Origin: a bacterium
GTDB taxonomy: Bacteria; UBP15; UBA6099; DSWB01
NCBI GenBank assembly: GCA_020061125.1
Contig: JAGUYV010000384.1
Coordinates: 1 to 9,985, forward strand
Direction: 5' to 3'
Length of the DNA: 9,985 nucleotides
Part shown: in pieces, positions 1,699 to 9,985 of the stretch
How the letters are laid out: each line of letters starts with the position of its first letter
Numbering within the stretch: the first letter of the stretch is position 1
Made by a program: the position numbers and the translations under genes
Notes under the pieces: generated by a model
Seen by the model: only the letters and a program-made list of their open reading frames with translations
Database searches by the model: none
Told to the model about the DNA's origin: nothing

Positions 1699-2349
1699 AT
1701 GATGGCGAAATGCGCTCAAAAAACAATTGGTATTTCACGAATACTGGGATTTGTTGCGTTTGCGTGTCTTGTGGCCGCGCGGCCCGCCCTATGCGGAACC
1801 AAGACCGGCGGCGTTTATGAAATCACGAACGACACCGTGGCCGTGGCGGGCAGCACGGCGCTCTCGGGCGGAACTTACTCAATGATATCCAGCGCGGGCC
1901 AGGGTGCGGGGTTCGTGGATTTCTTCCAGTCGCTTGGCGTCTATGATACGGGCTATCTGCTTGAATCCGGATTCGTCAGCGGCATCGAGGCCGTGTTCGA
2001 TGTGTTCACGCTCACGGCGACATCCACGGCGCCCGTGTCCGGCGGCTATCTTGGCGCGGGCGACGATGTGGTCCCCGGCGCGCGCATCAATTACACCATG
2101 GCGTTCCACAACGCGGGCCAGGCCGCCATTGACCCGTCGGACGCGGACAGCGCCGCACTGCTGCGCAACGCCATGCCCGCGCAGGTGCTTTTCGAGCCGG
2201 GCACCATCATGCTCAACGGCGTGGCCAAAACCGACGCCCTGGACGGGGACGAGTGCCATTACGACAGCGGCGCGCATGCCGTGGTCTGCAATGTGACCCT
2301 CACCGCGGGCGCTTCCGGCAACATCACATGGTCCGGGATTTTGCAGTAG
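1699..2349 (+). CDS. Exported protein with C-terminal DUF11-like domain
   Basis: A 216-residue protein, first gene of the plus-strand run. Seen: a basic start and hydrophobic stretch (about 10-27) followed by A-L-C-G, a likely signal peptide with cleavage near 31-33. Residues about 38-95 hold a short Gly/Ser/Thr-rich domain ending LLESGFVSGIEA. Residues about 118-216 read as a DUF11/TIGR01451-like beta domain: VPGARINYTMAFHNAGQ, then PAQVLFEPGTI and a closing GNITWSGIL. Two cysteines (in DECHYD and VVCNV) might form a disulphide. Known: DUF11-like domains are common in large bacterial envelope proteins. Inferred: small surface or periplasmic subunit. ATG codons at 1699 and 1702 are both possible; no Shine-Dalgarno sequence precedes either. 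The next gene starts 27 bases downstream and has a paralogous C-terminal domain. Molecular function is not recognised. Confidence 0.85.
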   Translation: MMAKCAQKTIGISRILGFVAFACLVAARPALCGTKTGGVYEITNDTVAVAGSTALSGGTYSMISSAGQGAGFVDFFQSLGVYDTGYLLESGFVSGIEAVFDVFTLTATSTAPVSGGYLGAGDDVVPGARINYTMAFHNAGQAAIDPSDADSAALLRNAMPAQVLFEPGTIMLNGVAKTDALDGDECHYDSGAHAVVCNVTLTAGASGNITWSGILQ

Positions 2350-2376
2350 CGGACGAAGCAAAAAACTTAATGAATT

Positions 2377-3426
2377 ATGCGTGAAATGAAGAAATTATTT
2401 TTTTTAACAATACTAATAATGGCCGGGGCGGCCGCGCCAGCGCTTGCTTTGGGCACGGCCAGCGATACGGCCCTTGTTCCGGCCGCGTCCGTGGATCTGT
2501 ACAACTACGCCACCTACACCGTCGGTTCCACCCTGACGCAGAGCGTCACGGCCACGCAGACCGTGCGCGCTGTCTATGGTCTGGCCACGGCCACATTCAC
2601 CGAAGAGGCCGCCAAATCCGCGGCTGCGGGCGCAACCGCCACCTATGATTTCGCCATCCAGTATGTGGGCAACGCCACGGAGACTGTGTATGCGGATCTG
2701 GGCGCGCAGTCTTTCGGGGGCGCGGCCGGAACCACGACCGAATGGTCCGTGGCCGCGGAGCACACAGGCGTGGGCATGGTCTCCTTTGTGACCAGCGGCG
2801 GGGCCACAGCCGCGCAGGCCGGGGACTCCGCTCCGCTGTCCGGCATCGCGCCCGGAGCAACCGCGGCCGTGCGCCTGTACCACAAAACCGCGGCCGACGC
2901 CACGGACGGAGGTTCAAGTTCCTTCACCGTGTCCCTGCGAGTCACAGCCTATCCGGGCGCACCGTACACGGGCTTCAACGGCGTGGTGTACGGCGGCGCA
3001 ACCACATGGTCCCGGCAGCTTGATTCCGGGACCGTGATCACAACGGTCAACGGCGTGGTCATAAACGCCACCAAAACCCTGGCCGTGGTTGCGCCCGCGG
3101 CGTATGTGTCCGCGGGCGGGGGCGCGGCGGACGCGGTTCCTGGAGCGCTGCTCAATTACACCCTGACATTCGCGAACAACGGCGGGCAGGCCGCGAACAC
3201 GGTCATTGTCACGGACGCCTTGCCCGCCAGCGTCACCTATGTTCCCGGCAGCATCAAATCGTGCTTCACGGGCGCGGCGTGTGCGCCCATGGCAGACCCG
3301 GACGCGGACGGCGCGGACCCGGACTGCTACGCGTCGGGCGCGCCCGTAACGCAAATCATCTGTAACGCCGCCACGCTGTCCGCGGGCGGCGGAGGCCAGG
3401 TCACCTATTCCGTGACCATTGATTGA
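2377..3426 (+). CDS. Exported DUF11-like domain protein
   Basis: A 349-residue protein, second of the secreted run. Seen: MREMKKLFFL plus a hydrophobic core and A-L-A-L, a clear signal peptide (about 1-25). ATG 2386 (MKKLFF) is an equally good start, and neither has a strong ribosome site. Residues about 28-230 are Ala/Thr/Gly-rich and beta-strand-like, with a pattern of transport-stage beta sandwiches (ATYDFAIQYVGN, SSFTVSLRVTAYPG). Residues about 240-349 are a DUF11-like domain: VPGALLNYTLTFANNGGQAANTVIVTDALPASVTYVPGSI. A DPDADGADPD acidic loop sits among four cysteines and could bind calcium; that is a guess. The gene ends 4 bases before the next ATG, so translation is probably coupled. 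Inferred: surface-exposed structural protein; no enzyme motif seen. Confidence 0.87.
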   Translation: MREMKKLFFLTILIMAGAAAPALALGTASDTALVPAASVDLYNYATYTVGSTLTQSVTATQTVRAVYGLATATFTEEAAKSAAAGATATYDFAIQYVGNATETVYADLGAQSFGGAAGTTTEWSVAAEHTGVGMVSFVTSGGATAAQAGDSAPLSGIAPGATAAVRLYHKTAADATDGGSSSFTVSLRVTAYPGAPYTGFNGVVYGGATTWSRQLDSGTVITTVNGVVINATKTLAVVAPAAYVSAGGGAADAVPGALLNYTLTFANNGGQAANTVIVTDALPASVTYVPGSIKSCFTGAACAPMADPDADGADPDCYASGAPVTQIICNAATLSAGGGGQVTYSVTID

Positions 3427-3430
3427 TTCA

Positions 3431-6151
3431 ATGAAACTATTTGGAATGCTGAACAAATCCGGAGTTATATTTTCAGGCATATTGCTATTCGTGTTGTTTG
3501 CGTGCGTGCGCGCTGTCGCGTTCACCCCGGCGGGCACGAACATCGCCATACCGAACCTGTCCATCACCGCGGACGGCGGGGCGGTCACGGTTTCGCAGCC
3601 CGCGAACCCGGCATCCGTGGCCGTGCTCGCGGTTTCGGGCGTGGCCTGGACCGCCACCCCCACCGGCGCAACCCTTGCAGCGGGCCAATCCGCAATCTAC
3701 CAGTTCACATTTTCCCACAACGGAAACATCGGGATCAATCCGGTCAAGGACAGGTTCTACATCAGCGTGACAAGCGCGTGGCTGAACGGCGTGTATCAGG
3801 ACGCAGGAGCCACTATCCCCGCTTCCGGCACCGTGGATCTGCCCCCGAATGCGGGCAATACATACACTTTTTATGCTAAAGTCACGGCCCCTGCCGGCGT
3901 TTCGGGCGTCACCGACACGCTCACGGCAACCGTGCACAACGATTATTACCAGAACAACGGCGCGAACGACCCGTTCGGCGATCCGGACCGCATTACAATG
4001 ACGGTGGCCACCACCGTTCCGGACACCACGCCGCCCGTGCTCGCGCTTTCGTCGCCCCTGGCAAACAGCGCGCTCACCGTCAGCTCCGCATCCGTGACCG
4101 GAACCACGGAACCGGGCGTTTCGGGCGTGATTTCCCTGTCGCCGTCGGGCGCCACCGCCGCGCTGGTAGTGTCCGGCGCGGGCGCGTTCTCCCAGGCCGT
4201 GGCCCTTTCCCAGGGAACCAACACGATCACCGTGCAGGTGGTGGATGCGGCGCTGAACACCACCATCGCCACGCGCGCCGTGGCCGTGGATTCCATTGTC
4301 CCCACAGTGGCCTTCACGGCCCCGGCACAGGGATCTTCTGTGGAAGGTGCTGTTCCGGTCACGGGTACGGCCGCGGACACGAATTTCTCACAGTACGCGC
4401 TTTATTACGGCCCGGGCCTGTCGCCCACAGCCTGGGGCGTGATTACCGCCACCAGCACGGCGCCGGTGAGTTCCGCCACCCTCGGCACATGGGACACATC
4501 GAGCCTTTACGGCGATTACACCCTGCGCCTGGCGGCCGTGGACACCTTCGGCAACACGGCCGAGGCCACGCGCTCCGTGTACATCGGCAACGCGGGCATA
4601 TTCACCGCGGCCATACCTGCCGGAGAATGGACCATGGTCGCCATCCCGGGCATCCCATACAACCCCGACCCCGCGCAGTGGTTCGGCTCGGGCCGCTTCG
4701 AAGTGCAGCGCTGGGACCCCGCCATGACGCCGGACCCCTACATGTACCAGTACCAGCGCACTTTCTCGGTGTCCGCGGGCCAGTCCTTCTGGGTGAAATC
4801 CTACGGAACAGCCGTGAATTACACAGTGAACGCCTGGGTTCCGGACACCACGCAGCCGTTCGAAATCCCGGTGCGCGCCGGGTGGAATCAGATCGCAAAT
4901 CCCTACAACCGCGCTATTGCATGGAGCCTTTTCCAGTTCAAGAACACGGCCACGGGAACCACCAAATCCATAACCGACGCCATCGCCGACGGCTGGATTG
5001 ACGGCTCCATCTATTCCTATTCCGGCAACAATTACAATCAGCACGGAACCGCGGATTCGCTGCAGCCGCAGACCGGGTACTTCATGAAGGCGCTTGTTGA
5101 CGGCACGCTTGTGATTGACCCTGGCGCGGGCCGCCCCGGCGGCGTGGCGCGCATGGTGCGCGCCAAATATGACTTCAAGCTCCAGCTCGCCGCGCAGGGC
5201 GCGAACCTGCGCGACACCGACAACTATGCGGGCATTCTCGCGAACAGCGCCGACGGCCACGACCCCGCCGACGCGGGCAATCCGCCCCTGGTCGAGCCAT
5301 TCGTCACGCTCTACTTCCCGCACGACGAATGGCCCGAACGGGCCGCCGGGCGCTATGCGTCCGACATCCGCCCCGCGCCGGAACAGGGGCAGTCCGTGAA
5401 GACCTGGACCTTCGTGGTGGAAACCAGCGAACCCGGCGCGCCCGTAACCGTGTCCTGGCCCAACGCGCACACAGTGCCCGCCAATTATGAAATCACCATA
5501 ACGGATGTGGAAACCGGAGCGACCGTGGATCCGCGAGTCCAGGATTCCTACGAATTCACGGCTGCGGCGCGCACGCCGCGCGTGTTCCGGCTCGCCGCGC
5601 GCAAGGCAGGCGCCGTGGCCGCGCAAAAGCTGGCCCTGTCTCTGCTCCCGGGCTGGAATCTCATCACCATTCCCCTGGACCCGGAAAACACGGATGTGCG
5701 CGCCCATCTTGGCGCCAATCTCCGCAACCTGTCCTTCTATCAGTATTACGACCTGAATTATTACGACCCGGACAGCCCCGAGCGCGTGGACATCCAGGCC
5801 GGGCTGGGTTACTGGGTATACGCGCAGGACGCCATGACCGTGGAATTCGAGGGCGAGCCGCCCAGCCCGCAGGCCCCGCTGGATGTGCCCCTTGCCTCGG
5901 GCTGGAACCTGATCGGCAACCCCTTCAACGAGGCTGTGGCGTTCGACGACACCCTCACAGTGGTGTCCGGCAGCCAGGTCCTGACCCTTTCCCAGGCTGT
6001 GGACGCGGGGCTTGTCGAGGGCCGGCTGTTCCGGTTCAACCCAGAAACCGGCGGATACGATGTGCTCGGCCCGGGCGCGTCCATGTCGCCCATGCAGGGG
6101 TACATCATCAAGGCTCTGGCCGCCTGCTCCCTGCGCTTCTCCGCCCAATAG
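3431..6151 (+). CDS. Large modular exported protein: Ig-like domains and GWN-type repeats
   Basis: A 906-residue protein, last of the secreted run. I chose ATG 3431, 4 bases after the previous stop; a TTG at 3419 in frame would add 4 residues and overlap that gene. Seen: signal peptide about 1-31 (ending VRAVAF). Residues about 32-190 are a beta domain related in style to the middle of the upstream protein. Two bacterial Ig-like domains follow, opening PDTTPPV (about 197) and VDSIVPTVAF (about 285). Then come four GWN-type modules: AGEWTMVAIP (about 395), AGWNQIANPYN (about 481), PGWNLITIPL (about 740) and SGWNLIGNPFN (about 822). Each closes with a G-Y/Q-[FWYI] stretch such as GYFMKA, GYWVYA or GYIIKA. 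A beta-rich segment (about 580-725; FVTLYFPHDEWP, TWTFVVET) separates modules 2 and 3. No sortase or obvious sorting tail. Inferred: surface or secreted binding protein; no catalytic residues identified. Confidence 0.9.
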   Translation: MKLFGMLNKSGVIFSGILLFVLFACVRAVAFTPAGTNIAIPNLSITADGGAVTVSQPANPASVAVLAVSGVAWTATPTGATLAAGQSAIYQFTFSHNGNIGINPVKDRFYISVTSAWLNGVYQDAGATIPASGTVDLPPNAGNTYTFYAKVTAPAGVSGVTDTLTATVHNDYYQNNGANDPFGDPDRITMTVATTVPDTTPPVLALSSPLANSALTVSSASVTGTTEPGVSGVISLSPSGATAALVVSGAGAFSQAVALSQGTNTITVQVVDAALNTTIATRAVAVDSIVPTVAFTAPAQGSSVEGAVPVTGTAADTNFSQYALYYGPGLSPTAWGVITATSTAPVSSATLGTWDTSSLYGDYTLRLAAVDTFGNTAEATRSVYIGNAGIFTAAIPAGEWTMVAIPGIPYNPDPAQWFGSGRFEVQRWDPAMTPDPYMYQYQRTFSVSAGQSFWVKSYGTAVNYTVNAWVPDTTQPFEIPVRAGWNQIANPYNRAIAWSLFQFKNTATGTTKSITDAIADGWIDGSIYSYSGNNYNQHGTADSLQPQTGYFMKALVDGTLVIDPGAGRPGGVARMVRAKYDFKLQLAAQGANLRDTDNYAGILANSADGHDPADAGNPPLVEPFVTLYFPHDEWPERAAGRYASDIRPAPEQGQSVKTWTFVVETSEPGAPVTVSWPNAHTVPANYEITITDVETGATVDPRVQDSYEFTAAARTPRVFRLAARKAGAVAAQKLALSLLPGWNLITIPLDPENTDVRAHLGANLRNLSFYQYYDLNYYDPDSPERVDIQAGLGYWVYAQDAMTVEFEGEPPSPQAPLDVPLASGWNLIGNPFNEAVAFDDTLTVVSGSQVLTLSQAVDAGLVEGRLFRFNPETGGYDVLGPGASMSPMQGYIIKALAACSLRFSAQ

Positions 6152-6342
6152 CCCGGAGCGATTTACAGCCAAGAATTTCCAATATTAATGAAAATGGATT
6201 AAATCAAATTTATAATACTCTTTGTCTGTAATGCATGAAACAATGTCATTCACGGTTGAAAAATGCGCGCAAATCGCATAAAAATCCGGTTTAGAATTTG
6301 AGCGGCGCGGGACCGGCCTCCCCGTGGCACAGGCGGCACGCA
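6152..6342 (+). promoter_or_regulatory. Intergenic region with two candidate promoters for the NtrC-type gene
   Basis: This AT-rich gap of 191 bases holds ATGAAA (6188-6193)-N17-TATAAT (6211-6216), whose -10 is perfect, and TTGAAA (6256-6261)-N17-TAAAAA (6279-6284). A small inverted repeat, ATGCG (6263-6267) / CGCAT (6275-6279), lies inside the second spacer. Predicted starts are near 6223 and 6291. No convincing rho-independent terminator follows the stop codon at 6151. Confidence 0.4.
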
Positions 6343-7716
6343 ATGACAAACGCAAAAATCCTGGTGGTGGATGACGAAAAGCCTCTGGCCCGGCTGATCT
6401 GCAAAAGCCTCTCCATGAAGGGCTTCACCGCGGACATGGCGCACACGGGCGCGGACGCCCTGGCCCTGCTCGAAAACCAGAACTACCACCTTGTGATCCT
6501 CGATTTTAAAATGCCGGGCATGGACGGGCTTGAAACCCTCAAGGCCATCCGCGAAAAATACCCTGACACGCGTGTGATTTTTACAACGGCATTCGGAGAT
6601 GACGATTTAGCCATACGCAGCCTGGAGCTTGGCGCGGACGATTTCATCCACAAGCCCTGCGACCTCAAAAACCTGCACTTCAGAATCCAGAAAACCCTGA
6701 AATACCGCAGTCTGGAAGCAGAAGTCGAGACTCTTCGCACGCAGGTTCACGACCCGCGTGCGCCGTTCATCGCAGGCAGCCCGGAAATGCTCGAGGTGAT
6801 TCAGCGCATCGAGCAGGTGGCCGCGGCCGCGGCCCCGGTTCTGATATGCGGCGAAACCGGCACGGGCAAGGAACTCGTGGCCAACGCCATCCACAACAGC
6901 GAGAACAACCCGCGCGGTAGCAGGCCGTTCATTTCCGTGAACAGCGCGGCCATCAGCGAGAACCTGCTTGAAAGCGAACTTTTTGGGCATGCGCGCGGTG
7001 CCTTCACGGGTGCGGTGTCCGTGAAGCACGGATTGTTCGAGGTGGCCGACGGCGGCACGCTGTTCCTGGATGAAATCAGCAGCGCGCCCCTGTCATTGCA
7101 ATCCAAACTCCTGCGCGTGCTCGACGCCGGGGAGTTCATGCGCGTGGGCGAGTCCAGGGTGCGCAAGGTTGATGTGCGCATCCTCGCCGCCACGAACCGC
7201 AACCTGCTGGAAGAAGTCAAAAACTCCCGCTTCCGCGCGGATCTCTACCACCGGCTCAATGTGCTCCAGATCGAACTGCCGCCCCTGCGCTTGCGCGGCG
7301 CAGATGTGCTGCTCCTCACGGATTATTTCGTGGACCATTTCAATAAAAGTACGGGCCGCAGCGTGAAGCTGGGCCGACAGGCCCGAAGCGCGCTCGCCGC
7401 CTATCCCTGGCCCGGCAATGTGCGCGAACTCAAGCACTGCATCGAGTCCCTGGTCCTTTTGAACCGGGGCGGCAGAATCGAGCTGCATGACCTGCCCGAG
7501 CGCGTGGCCGGCGCGGCCGCAGCCGCCCTCAACGCCAGCTTCACGGATCTCAAAAACCGTACCATCGAGAAATTCGAGCGCAATTACTTTGTTTCTCTGC
7601 TGAACAATGCGTCCGGCAATGTGTCCCAGGCCTCGCGCATCGCGGATATGAACAGGGCTTATTTGATAAAAAAACTCAAAGAATATGACATAGACCCTTC
7701 CGAATTCAAGCACTGA
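6343..7716 (+). CDS. NtrC-family sigma54-dependent response regulator
   Basis: A 457-residue protein from ATG 6343, with AGGCGG 6 bases upstream; a TTG at 6298 would add 15 residues of unlikely sequence. Seen: receiver domain 1-120 with D10/D11, phosphoacceptor D54 (LDFKMPGMDG), T82 and K104-P105. A linker helix (about 120-140) leads to the AAA+ domain: Walker A GETGTGKE 170-177, sigma54-contacting GAFTGA 219-224, Walker B GGTLFLDE 237-244 and FRADLYHRL 297-305 with the arginine finger. A Fis-type helix-turn-helix is at about 425-450 (GNVSQASRIA...YLIKKLKEY). Known: phosphorylation of such proteins drives ATP-dependent opening of sigma54 promoters. All key residues are intact, so it should be active. 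The cognate kinase is not in the window. Its targets are unknown; a sigma54-like motif lies in the next intergenic region. Confidence 0.96.
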   Translation: MTNAKILVVDDEKPLARLICKSLSMKGFTADMAHTGADALALLENQNYHLVILDFKMPGMDGLETLKAIREKYPDTRVIFTTAFGDDDLAIRSLELGADDFIHKPCDLKNLHFRIQKTLKYRSLEAEVETLRTQVHDPRAPFIAGSPEMLEVIQRIEQVAAAAAPVLICGETGTGKELVANAIHNSENNPRGSRPFISVNSAAISENLLESELFGHARGAFTGAVSVKHGLFEVADGGTLFLDEISSAPLSLQSKLLRVLDAGEFMRVGESRVRKVDVRILAATNRNLLEEVKNSRFRADLYHRLNVLQIELPPLRLRGADVLLLTDYFVDHFNKSTGRSVKLGRQARSALAAYPWPGNVRELKHCIESLVLLNRGGRIELHDLPERVAGAAAAALNASFTDLKNRTIEKFERNYFVSLLNNASGNVSQASRIADMNRAYLIKKLKEYDIDPSEFKH

Positions 7717-7977: not shown

Positions 7978-8065
7978 TTCCCGCCCGTGGCATGCGAATT
8001 GATTCGTAGTTAACCGCGCTCAATCGCGAATCGCAAGGCGCCATATTTGAAAGGACGGGCGGGAA
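7978..8065 (+). promoter_or_regulatory. Structured leader element flanking the ribosome binding site
   Basis: TTCCCGCCCGT (7978-7988) is perfectly complementary to ACGGGCGGGAA (8055-8065). The right arm starts on the last base of the Shine-Dalgarno-like AAAGGA (8050-8055) and ends on the A of the start codon at 8065. Inside are further complements, such as GATTCG 8001-8006 / CGAATC 8027-8032 and GCGA 7994-7997 / TCGC 8031-8034. In RNA this would be a closing stem with internal helices that blocks initiation. It could also be a DNA operator. Confidence 0.45.
7988..8003 (+). promoter_or_regulatory. Sigma54-like promoter motif
   Basis: TGGCATGCGAATTGAT fits the consensus TGGCAYRNNNNTTGCW at every fixed position except the -12 C, which is A here (GG-N10-GA instead of GG-N10-GC). 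The predicted start is near 8014, about 50 bases before the receiver gene. It lies just downstream of a gene for a sigma54 activator. The altered -12 dinucleotide lowers confidence. Confidence 0.33.
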
Positions 8066-8472
8066 TGCACGGGAAACGGGTTCTCATCGCCGACGACGAT
8101 GCTTTTTACCGCAAGCGCATCGCGGACATTTTCAAGAATTGCGGCATCGGCTACACCATGGTGGACTCCGGCGTTGACCTGGTCAAGGAGCTCCTCGCCC
8201 GGCCCGCAGATTACGCCTGCATCCTCACGGACATCTACATGGAAGCCATGTCAGGGCTGGAGGCGGCGTCCATGATCCGCGCGCGGTTCGAGAACCTTCC
8301 AATTGTGGTCATGACCGGCGACGATTGCCTGGAGACGGAGATTGACGCGCGGCGCATCGGCATTTCCTACTATCTCAAGAAACCGTTCGGCAAGCAGGAG
8401 CTTCTGGCCGTGATTTCCCGGTACGCTCCAGATCTGGCGGCAAAGGGACATGTGGAAAATTCTCATTGTTGA
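8065..8472 (+). CDS. Receiver-only response regulator (CheY/Spo0F-like)
   Basis: A 135-residue protein from ATG 8065, with AAAGGA 9 bases upstream; a TTG at 8047 is in frame but less likely. Seen: a single receiver domain filling the protein, with acidic D10-D11-D12, phosphoacceptor D56 (LTDIYMEAMSG), T84 (VVMTGDD) and K106-P107, plus a short tail (GHVENSHC). The proline usual four residues after the phospho-Asp is replaced by E60. No output domain. Known: such proteins act by binding partners or passing phosphate on. The gene overlaps the next receiver gene by 23 bases, so they are co-transcribed. Inferred: a relay or competitor module; its kinase is not in the window. Its expression may be controlled by the inverted repeat around its start. 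Confidence 0.93.
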   Translation: MHGKRVLIADDDAFYRKRIADIFKNCGIGYTMVDSGVDLVKELLARPADYACILTDIYMEAMSGLEAASMIRARFENLPIVVMTGDDCLETEIDARRIGISYYLKKPFGKQELLAVISRYAPDLAAKGHVENSHC

Positions 8473-8875
8473 AGACGATCCGGAAATGCGCGAATTCATG
8501 AGCGATGTAGTGGACATGCTCGGGTACAGCGTATGCACAGCGGATTCGGGCGGCCAGGCGGTGCGTGAGGCCGATCGGCTCCGTCCAGACTTGGTGGTGC
8601 AGGACATCATGCTTCCGGATTTTGACGGGTGGACCGCGGCCCGTCGCATGCGCGACCTGCCGGGGCGCCGGGATCTGCCGGTTGTGTTCTGCAGCGGCTC
8701 GCAGCAGGAGGCCGAGCATTACATGCAGTGCCCGCCACCCGCGTCCAGGTTCCTGCTCAAGCCTTTCGACATAGACGCGCTCAACGCCGCAATCAAGGAA
8801 TTTCTGGCCGAGGCACGGCGCGATGACAACGGGGAGCCGCAACCCGCGCTCCCTCCTCCGGTTCCGGAGTCTTGA
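8450..8875 (+). CDS. Receiver-only response regulator
   Basis: A 141-residue protein. ATG 8450 lies inside the end of the previous gene (23-base overlap, different frame), with AAAGGG only 2 bases upstream, so coupling to upstream translation is likely. Seen: receiver domain about 1-125, with E8-D9-D10, phosphoacceptor D52 (VVQDIMLPDFDGW), S82 in place of Thr (VFCSGS) and K104-P105. The stretch between beta4 and the lysine has an unusual YMQCPPPASRF segment. A Pro-rich acidic tail (about 128-141) follows. No DNA-binding domain. The pair with the preceding receiver gene shares no obvious close identity outside the fold, so it is not a very recent duplicate. Inferred: a second CheY-like element in the same pathway. 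Confidence 0.93.
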   Translation: MWKILIVEDDPEMREFMSDVVDMLGYSVCTADSGGQAVREADRLRPDLVVQDIMLPDFDGWTAARRMRDLPGRRDLPVVFCSGSQQEAEHYMQCPPPASRFLLKPFDIDALNAAIKEFLAEARRDDNGEPQPALPPPVPES

Positions 8876-8908
8876 ACCCGGAATCCAATACCGTTCGGAG
8901 ATATGGGA

Positions 8909-9985
8909 ATGGATCAGCTCACGAACAAACAGTTTGACGAACTCAAAATGCAACTCGATGTACTGGCCGGAATTATCGCGGACATGGACGAAGCCAGCGA
9001 GCATATTCTTGGCGTTGCCGAAGAGATTCTGCTCAAGGTGTCGAACGCGGAATCCGGCGGCCTCGAGGCGGAAACCCGTGCCGCGCTTGATTGCGTGCGC
9101 CGCGTGCGCGGCGCGGACGAGCCTTTCGAGTCCTGCTACCCCGCGCTGTGCGACGCCGTGGACAAGCTCCAGCGCGCGGCCGAGGCCATGGCGCAGGCCG
9201 GTCCGCAAATCCCGAATCCCCCGTCCGCGGACCCGCTTCCCGAAATCTCCGGAGATCCCGAAACAGCCATTCCCATTGATGTTTTTGATGAATTCGGGGA
9301 GGATGCGGAAGATTCAGATGACTCGGGCGTGGAGCATGTGGTGTTGAGCCAGGCCGACTCCCAGGATCTGGACATGAACCTGGACATCATCGCCGATCTG
9401 CTCGAGGGAATAGACGAAGACAACGAGCACCTGAAAAGCGTGCTTGTGGATATGTTTCAGAAAATTGCATCCATACCGGGCCTGCCCGCGCCGCTCATGC
9501 GGCGGGTGTGCTCAACGGCCGCCATGCTCGAGCACGGGCGCACGGATTTCCCGAGCGGAGTGGCGGAGCTGCGGGACGCTGTGAACACCCTTCGTGAACT
9601 CACGGCCACGGAACCGGCCGCGCCTCCGGAGTCGGCTTCGGACGCGGCCCGCGCCGCATCCAAGACCAGGAGCGCGAACCTGGACACCTTCCTGGAGCTG
9701 CACCCGCCGCTCCTCGACGCCCTGGAACAGGAACTCATGAACGCGGTCCACGGAGGCGAACAGGCCGCCGCCGCAGTCAGAAACCGCATCCGCAGCCTTA
9801 TCGAAGAATATGAAAAATACAATTATGAAGCGCCCGCCGCATTTCTCAAGCAGGTGCAGACCCGGCTCGACGCCATGGGCGCGGAGCTGTGCGAGGAAGC
9901 TGTGACCGCGCTTCTGAACGCCAGGGACATCCTGTTTGATTCCTTTGACGCGGTCGAGGGCGAGGATGTGGACGCCGCGCGCGCC
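8909..9985 (+). CDS. Unrecognised helical protein with internal duplication, 3' end beyond window
   Basis: A frame open from ATG 8909 to the last base (359 codons). GGAG at 8897-8900 is 8 bases upstream of 8909; ATG 8903 is the alternative. Starts 33 bases after the receiver gene, in the same apparent operon. Seen: no signal peptide or membrane segment; mostly helical and acidic. Residues 12-90 and 154-231 align: LKMQLDVLAG...DEASEH...K with LDMNLDIIAD...DEDNEH...K, and later DAVDKLQR with DAVNTLRE. A Pro/acidic linker (about 98-150) joins them, another Ala/Pro/Ser-rich linker is at about 232-255, then a third helical region (258-359). Not identified: the helical pattern faintly recalls CheZ-like or Hpt/CheA N-terminal helices, but no phospho-accepting A-H-x-L-K-G motif is present. 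Context suggests a partner or scaffold of the receivers. Function unknown. Confidence 0.8.
   Translation, partial: MDQLTNKQFDELKMQLDVLAGIIADMDEASEHILGVAEEILLKVSNAESGGLEAETRAALDCVRRVRGADEPFESCYPALCDAVDKLQRAAEAMAQAGPQIPNPPSADPLPEISGDPETAIPIDVFDEFGEDAEDSDDSGVEHVVLSQADSQDLDMNLDIIADLLEGIDEDNEHLKSVLVDMFQKIASIPGLPAPLMRRVCSTAAMLEHGRTDFPSGVAELRDAVNTLRELTATEPAAPPESASDAARAASKTRSANLDTFLELHPPLLDALEQELMNAVHGGEQAAAAVRNRIRSLIEEYEKYNYEAPAAFLKQVQTRLDAMGAELCEEAVTALLNARDILFDSFDAVEGEDVDAARA

Follow-up and report, generated by a model that had tools for sequence, protein, structure and literature searches.

The locus and its gene content

The window analysed here is a stretch of 9,985 nucleotides that makes up the whole of contig C454 (9985 bp), one of 513 contigs in an assembly with an estimated completeness of 79%. 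The last open reading frame of the window (8909–9985, + strand) encodes 359 amino acids and is still open at the contig end; as the window is the entire contig, this frame is truncated by the end of the contig. The homologues described below identify it as the 5' part of a cheA gene. A second in-frame ATG at 8903 provides an alternative start, and residue n counted from the ATG at 8903 is residue n-2 counted from the ATG at 8909. The residue numbers of bundles and helices given below count from 8903.

A stand-alone receiver (REC) gene is located directly upstream of the cheA gene (8450–8875, + strand; PF00072, E 1e-22) and is preceded by another stand-alone REC gene (8047–8472, + strand; PF00072, E 1.6e-20), the product of which is 38% identical to L017_6 at the homologous locus L017. 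Thus, both of the receiver genes that the original prediction had placed before the frame are confirmed by profile matches. Further upstream lies a gene for an NtrC-type sigma-54 response regulator (6298–7716, + strand), which is 51% identical to the regulator at the equivalent place in L017.

The remainder of the window is occupied by genes of a different kind. Three successive secreted or surface-type proteins with matches to DUF11-like and Ig-like domains are encoded at 1699–6151 (+ strand), adjoining the NtrC-type regulator on its upstream side; in L017, their place is taken by a 1239-aa PAS/GAF sensor kinase. At 1–1719 (− strand), a repetitive, secreted-looking protein is encoded by a frame that is open at the contig start and contains a 240-bp tandem unit (80 aa), and the motifs TMTG and TATYF recur in this protein.

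The truncated frame as the front end of a CheA kinase

Relatives with a window-like N-terminus are encoded once more elsewhere in this genome and at loci in five genomes of the same order. All of these homologues are CheA proteins, with full-length sizes of 815–967 aa (plus one 809-aa fragment), and in them the window-homologous region is followed by PF01627 (Hpt, P1), PF02895 (H-kinase_dim, P3), PF02518 (HATPase_c, P4) and PF01584 (CheW, P5). The frame had earlier been described as an unknown helical protein. The full-length homologues identify it instead as the front end of CheA rather than a stand-alone protein, and, judged by this homology, it almost certainly represents the N-terminal third of the chemotaxis kinase. 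The core domains P1, P3, P4 and P5 lie beyond the cut end of the window gene and were found in the full-length homologues and on another contig of the same genome, C12.

Searches with the window protein itself were less informative. Scans against Pfam and NCBIfam assigned no family to it, and the candidates DUF2277 and ParcG were rejected as weak matches below the cut-off that were inconsistent across members. In addition, no relative was found when GTDB-based contigs were scanned with the window protein, and the IMG/VR search gave no match.

Contig C12 (5162 bp) starts within a cheA gene, shortly before P1. This gene runs for 571 aa up to its stop codon, shows 57–63% identity to its relatives and encodes all four core domains (P1, P3, P4 and P5), with the phospho-His motif FHNVKG in P1; it is followed by cheW, cheR, cheD, cheY, cheX and then another receiver-containing gene. 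In the searches made of this genome, two N-termini of the window type and two closely matching core halves were recovered, and one pair of these is joined in L016. Therefore, we infer that C12 most likely holds the remainder of the cheA gene that is cut off in the window; as the genome is 79% complete, another partner is possible. An overlap between the window end and C12 was sought and none was found, and the gap between them appears to be approximately 30–40 residues, judged from L016. The same genome also encodes a further CheA-like kinase with a C-terminal receiver (L036, G000:C345).

An internal duplication within the frame

The original prediction had recognized, by eye, a duplicated domain in this protein, and quantitative comparison bears this out. 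Residues 12–44 and 154–186 (counted from the ATG at 8909) share 11 identities and 21 positives over 33 positions. Scored without gaps by BLOSUM62, the pair reaches 62, more than any other off-diagonal 33-mer of this protein (shuffled 200 times: mean 27, SD 4.9, maximum 49). A gapped Smith-Waterman alignment of copy A with copy B scored 70, against 26.6 ± 4.9 for shuffled sequences, and none of 1000 shuffles reached 70. The profile self-alignment proposed as a check was likewise significant: a profile-profile comparison of A with B across the homologues gave an E-value of 1.7e-13 (probability 98) over 84 columns. The DAV triplet is also present in both copies, at 82 and 223. From these comparisons, it is as good as certain that the duplication within the frame is real and that its copies have diverged.

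A small tree placed the A copies in one cluster with a support of 0.89, while other deep branches were weakly supported. From this cluster, the duplication is probably older than the split between the compared genomes. A search with the A–B profile was positive in 6 of 386 genomes, all from the window's own order, and three of the four genera examined in this order retain the A/B pair. The A/B region also breaks assemblies in more than one metagenome-assembled genome, since the L017-type cheA of a relative (G006) is likewise split at this region over two contigs, C25 and C598 (L048 and L019).

Three predicted four-helix bundles

AlphaFold2 predicted three four-helix bundles in the fragment, A (residues 8–98), B (150–235) and C (245–352), with low-confidence acidic linkers between them; the pTM of the whole-fragment model (0.33) is too low for bundle-to-bundle packing to be read from it. 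Repeat A (8924–9196, + strand) comprises helices 8–26, 33–49, 55–69 and 75–98, with pLDDT values mostly of 75–86. It is followed by the acidic A–B linker (9197–9349, + strand), with a pLDDT of about 30–48 at residues 101–145, and by repeat B (9350–9607, + strand), with helices 150–169, 175–189, 196–210 and 216–235. When repeat B was modelled alone, with all copies as the alignment, the model had a pLDDT of 90 and a pTM of 0.79.

The original prediction had suggested comparing the two copies with the Hpt and CheA P1 folds. At the level of predicted structure, the best VIA match of repeat B was the P1 domain of Thermotoga maritima CheA (1tqg; Z 13.5, rmsd 1.6 over 91 residues), in a tie with designed bundles. 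For both repeats, CheA P1 is the best natural structural match, designed four-helix bundles score as well, and high fold Z-scores come easily to unrelated helical bundles. At the level of sequence the similarity is faint and not significant: the A/B profile aligned with Hpt in a colinear but weak manner (E 0.0041; reversed control 0.058), no Pfam Hpt match was obtained for either repeat, and profile comparison of A and B alone with domain C or with the local P1 set gave no significant match. Matches of the repeat profile in the PDB to designed coiled coils, syntaxin and troponin C were judged to be compositional.

If the weak Hpt alignment is right, the putative phospho-His site is occupied by Ser47 in A and by Ala189 in B. 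Under this alignment, the homologues (an alignment of 8 rows, representing about five independent lineages) carry Ala, Asn, Glu or Ser at the site in B, and never His in A. A and B thus form a duplicated pair that evolves fast, is predicted to fold like P1 and has no His at the putative site; the two probably share a common origin with P1.

For the third bundle, the relationship to P1 is considerably clearer. Domain C (9635–9958, + strand) matched a set of 27 Hpt domains in hhalign with an E-value of 1.3e-6 over 99 columns (reversed control 0.17). Profile searches with hmmsearch and against the PDB retrieved the CheA P1 structures 3kyi, 1i5n and 8c5v, with P1 matches at E 0.0034 and 0.0097, and its fold matched 1tqg in VIA (Z 12.7, rmsd 1.8 over 100). 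The phospho-His position on helix 2 holds Arg297 in the window, and the relatives carry Ala or Gly there, so that His is absent from it throughout. Domain C is thus very likely a degenerate P1/Hpt domain from which the phospho-histidine has been lost. One homologue, L022, is without domain C. The suggested neighbourhood of Hpt and CheA P1 therefore proved well chosen, in that the gene is cheA, a degenerate P1 makes up the third bundle and the repeats are predicted to be P1-like.

The D-E-x-x-E-H motif

The two repeats had drawn attention by a D-E-x-x-E-H motif, which is indeed present in both copies in the window: as DEASEH in repeat A (residues 27–32 from the ATG at 8909; 8987–9004, + strand) and as DEDNEH in repeat B (residues 169–174 from the same ATG; 9413–9430, + strand). 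It had been placed on helices; in the AlphaFold2 models, it sits instead in the loop that links helix 1 to helix 2 and at the N-cap, at the same turn of each bundle, approximately 13 residues ahead of the position aligned with the phospho-His.

Beyond the window, the motif does not hold as a shared feature. The window and L022 have the copy A His, which most homologues (L016, L017 and L018/L020/L021) lack, and the leading Asp and Glu vary among the homologues. Therefore, D-E-x-x-E-H is not a shared catalytic motif, nor is it a phosphoacceptor, and the copy B His alone deserves attention. This residue (H176 counted from 8903, H174 from 8909) is invariant in all 8 sequences, with an acidic neighbour in most of them, and a Lys of the same copy (K187) is invariant as well.

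Gene neighbourhood of the homologous loci

The order sigma-54 regulator, receiver, cheA is common to the window, L017 and L048, and a REC related to that at 8047–8472 precedes the homologous cheA in L017. In three lineages, represented by the window, by L017/L048 and by L018/L020/L021, a clear receiver gene lies immediately 5' of cheA, while no receiver gene was found upstream of cheA in L022. At the paralogous locus L016, a receiver-like protein (9197–9703, − strand) overlaps the cheA start and scores 23.4 bits against a Pfam cut-off of 30.2; it may be a degenerate receiver beside His-less Hpt bundles.

Genes for MCP, CheR, CheD, CheY, CheX and FapA are encoded at the homologous loci. The chemotaxis-cluster genes were seen at these loci and on C12, and the window itself contributes only the receivers and the sigma-54 regulator. 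In addition, the flagellar switch protein FliM was present in all seven genomes searched for it. Given this gene content and the presence of FliM, the homologous cluster looks like a flagellar chemotaxis cluster.

Possible roles of the His-less bundles

No Pfam match to a P2 domain was found in any CheA of this group, C12 included. We propose that the three tandem four-helix bundles, A, B and C, stand before the catalytic P1 and do not themselves carry phosphate. They would serve as non-catalytic binding modules for CheY and/or the upstream-encoded receivers, or for array partners, would keep the bound proteins within reach of the active P1 and of the kinase core, and would in this way substitute for the P2 docking domain. 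We favour this explanation as a whole, that is, a CheA N-terminus with His-less P1-like bundles acting in docking or as a scaffold, with moderate confidence; the docking or scaffold role, taken on its own, is tentative.

Two observations weigh against this explanation. Between homologues, A, B and C mostly show 17–38% identity, against 44–70% in P1–P5, and such faster divergence is expected of a spacer as much as of partner-specific docking; and L022 has neither a receiver gene upstream of its cheA nor domain C. The bundles might accordingly be a flexible spacer, an array-anchoring segment or decaying relics of a duplicated P1, with no specific receiver binding. The acidic, low-confidence linkers between the bundles and the absence of domain C from L022 would also fit this reading; however, three of four genera retain the A/B pair, copy B has its invariant His and Lys, and the predicted fold is confident, all of which argues that the pair is not simply decaying. 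We consider this alternative somewhat unlikely. A more specific form of the docking proposal, in which A/B would be a lineage-specific receiver-docking module of the UBP15 CheA that replaces P2, with H176 and K187 in a phosphate-independent surface for the adjacent-encoded receiver, is speculative and, as it stands, distinctly unlikely.

The bundles could also be pseudo-substrates, which would rival the genuine P1 in binding to P4 or to receivers and thereby lower the output. Domain C is a His-less P1, and the analogy is with AHP6, a His-mutated pseudo-HPt that inhibits cytokinin signalling (PMC3572949). However, the bundles are poorly conserved in comparison with P1, and a mimic directed at the conserved surface of P4 would be expected to differ in this respect, which makes such competition improbable.

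That the D-E-x-x-E-H motif forms an active phosphotransfer or phosphatase site, as originally proposed, has only the invariance of the copy B His in 8 sequences in its favour and is extremely improbable, as the motif lies in an inter-helix turn some 13 residues short of the aligned phospho-His, copy A lacks the motif's His in L016, L017 and L018/L020/L021, the Asp and Glu are variable, the window protein matches no phosphatase family, and CheX, a known CheY phosphatase, is encoded separately in the clusters. With regard to CheZ, which had also been named for comparison, no Pfam or NCBIfam profile matched the window protein, and it was absent among the fold matches listed, an absence that excludes nothing.

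Comparison with known multi-Hpt CheA proteins

Multi-Hpt CheA proteins with His-less copies are already known. ChpA, a Tfp-class CheA from Pseudomonas aeruginosa, resembles the protein described here in its tandem N-terminal Hpt-like bundles, some of which are without the phospho-His and one of which was missed by HHpred (PMC10782961). It differs in its many His-bearing Hpts and its C-terminal receiver, whereas here there is one intact P1 and no receiver fusion, and CheD, CheX and FapA genes are its neighbours in the cluster, in genomes carrying FliM. A further precedent is FimL, a homologue of the ChpA N-terminus in which Gln occupies both acceptor sites (PMC3019171); FimL binds FimV and the CheY-like PilG, and brings PilG to the poles (PMC10519157). 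The likeness of ChpA and FimL to A and B is drawn here at the level of domain arrangement and acceptor residues.

CheA3 of Cereibacter (Rhodobacter) sphaeroides likewise has degenerate, His-less Hpts alongside an intact one, and its P1 (3kyi) is the best PDB sequence match of domain C. In CheA3, however, the active P1 comes first, with the degenerate Hpts after it, and the protein has a non-functional kinase core (PMC10782961), whereas here the degenerate bundles precede P1 and the core families P3–P5 score well. The function of the His-less Hpt domains in both ChpA and CheA3 is unsettled (PMC10782961). The plant protein AHP6, an Hpt fold with its acceptor His lost, offers a precedent for a regulatory role; it is a stand-alone eukaryotic protein and is compared with the bundles by analogy.

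The CheA family described here thus combines two or three His-less bundles with a single intact P1, has no P2 match and lacks a fused receiver. ChpA, with its many phosphorylatable Hpt domains, is a less simple test case than this family, and an unannotated repeat of a poorly studied candidate phylum thereby gains a name.
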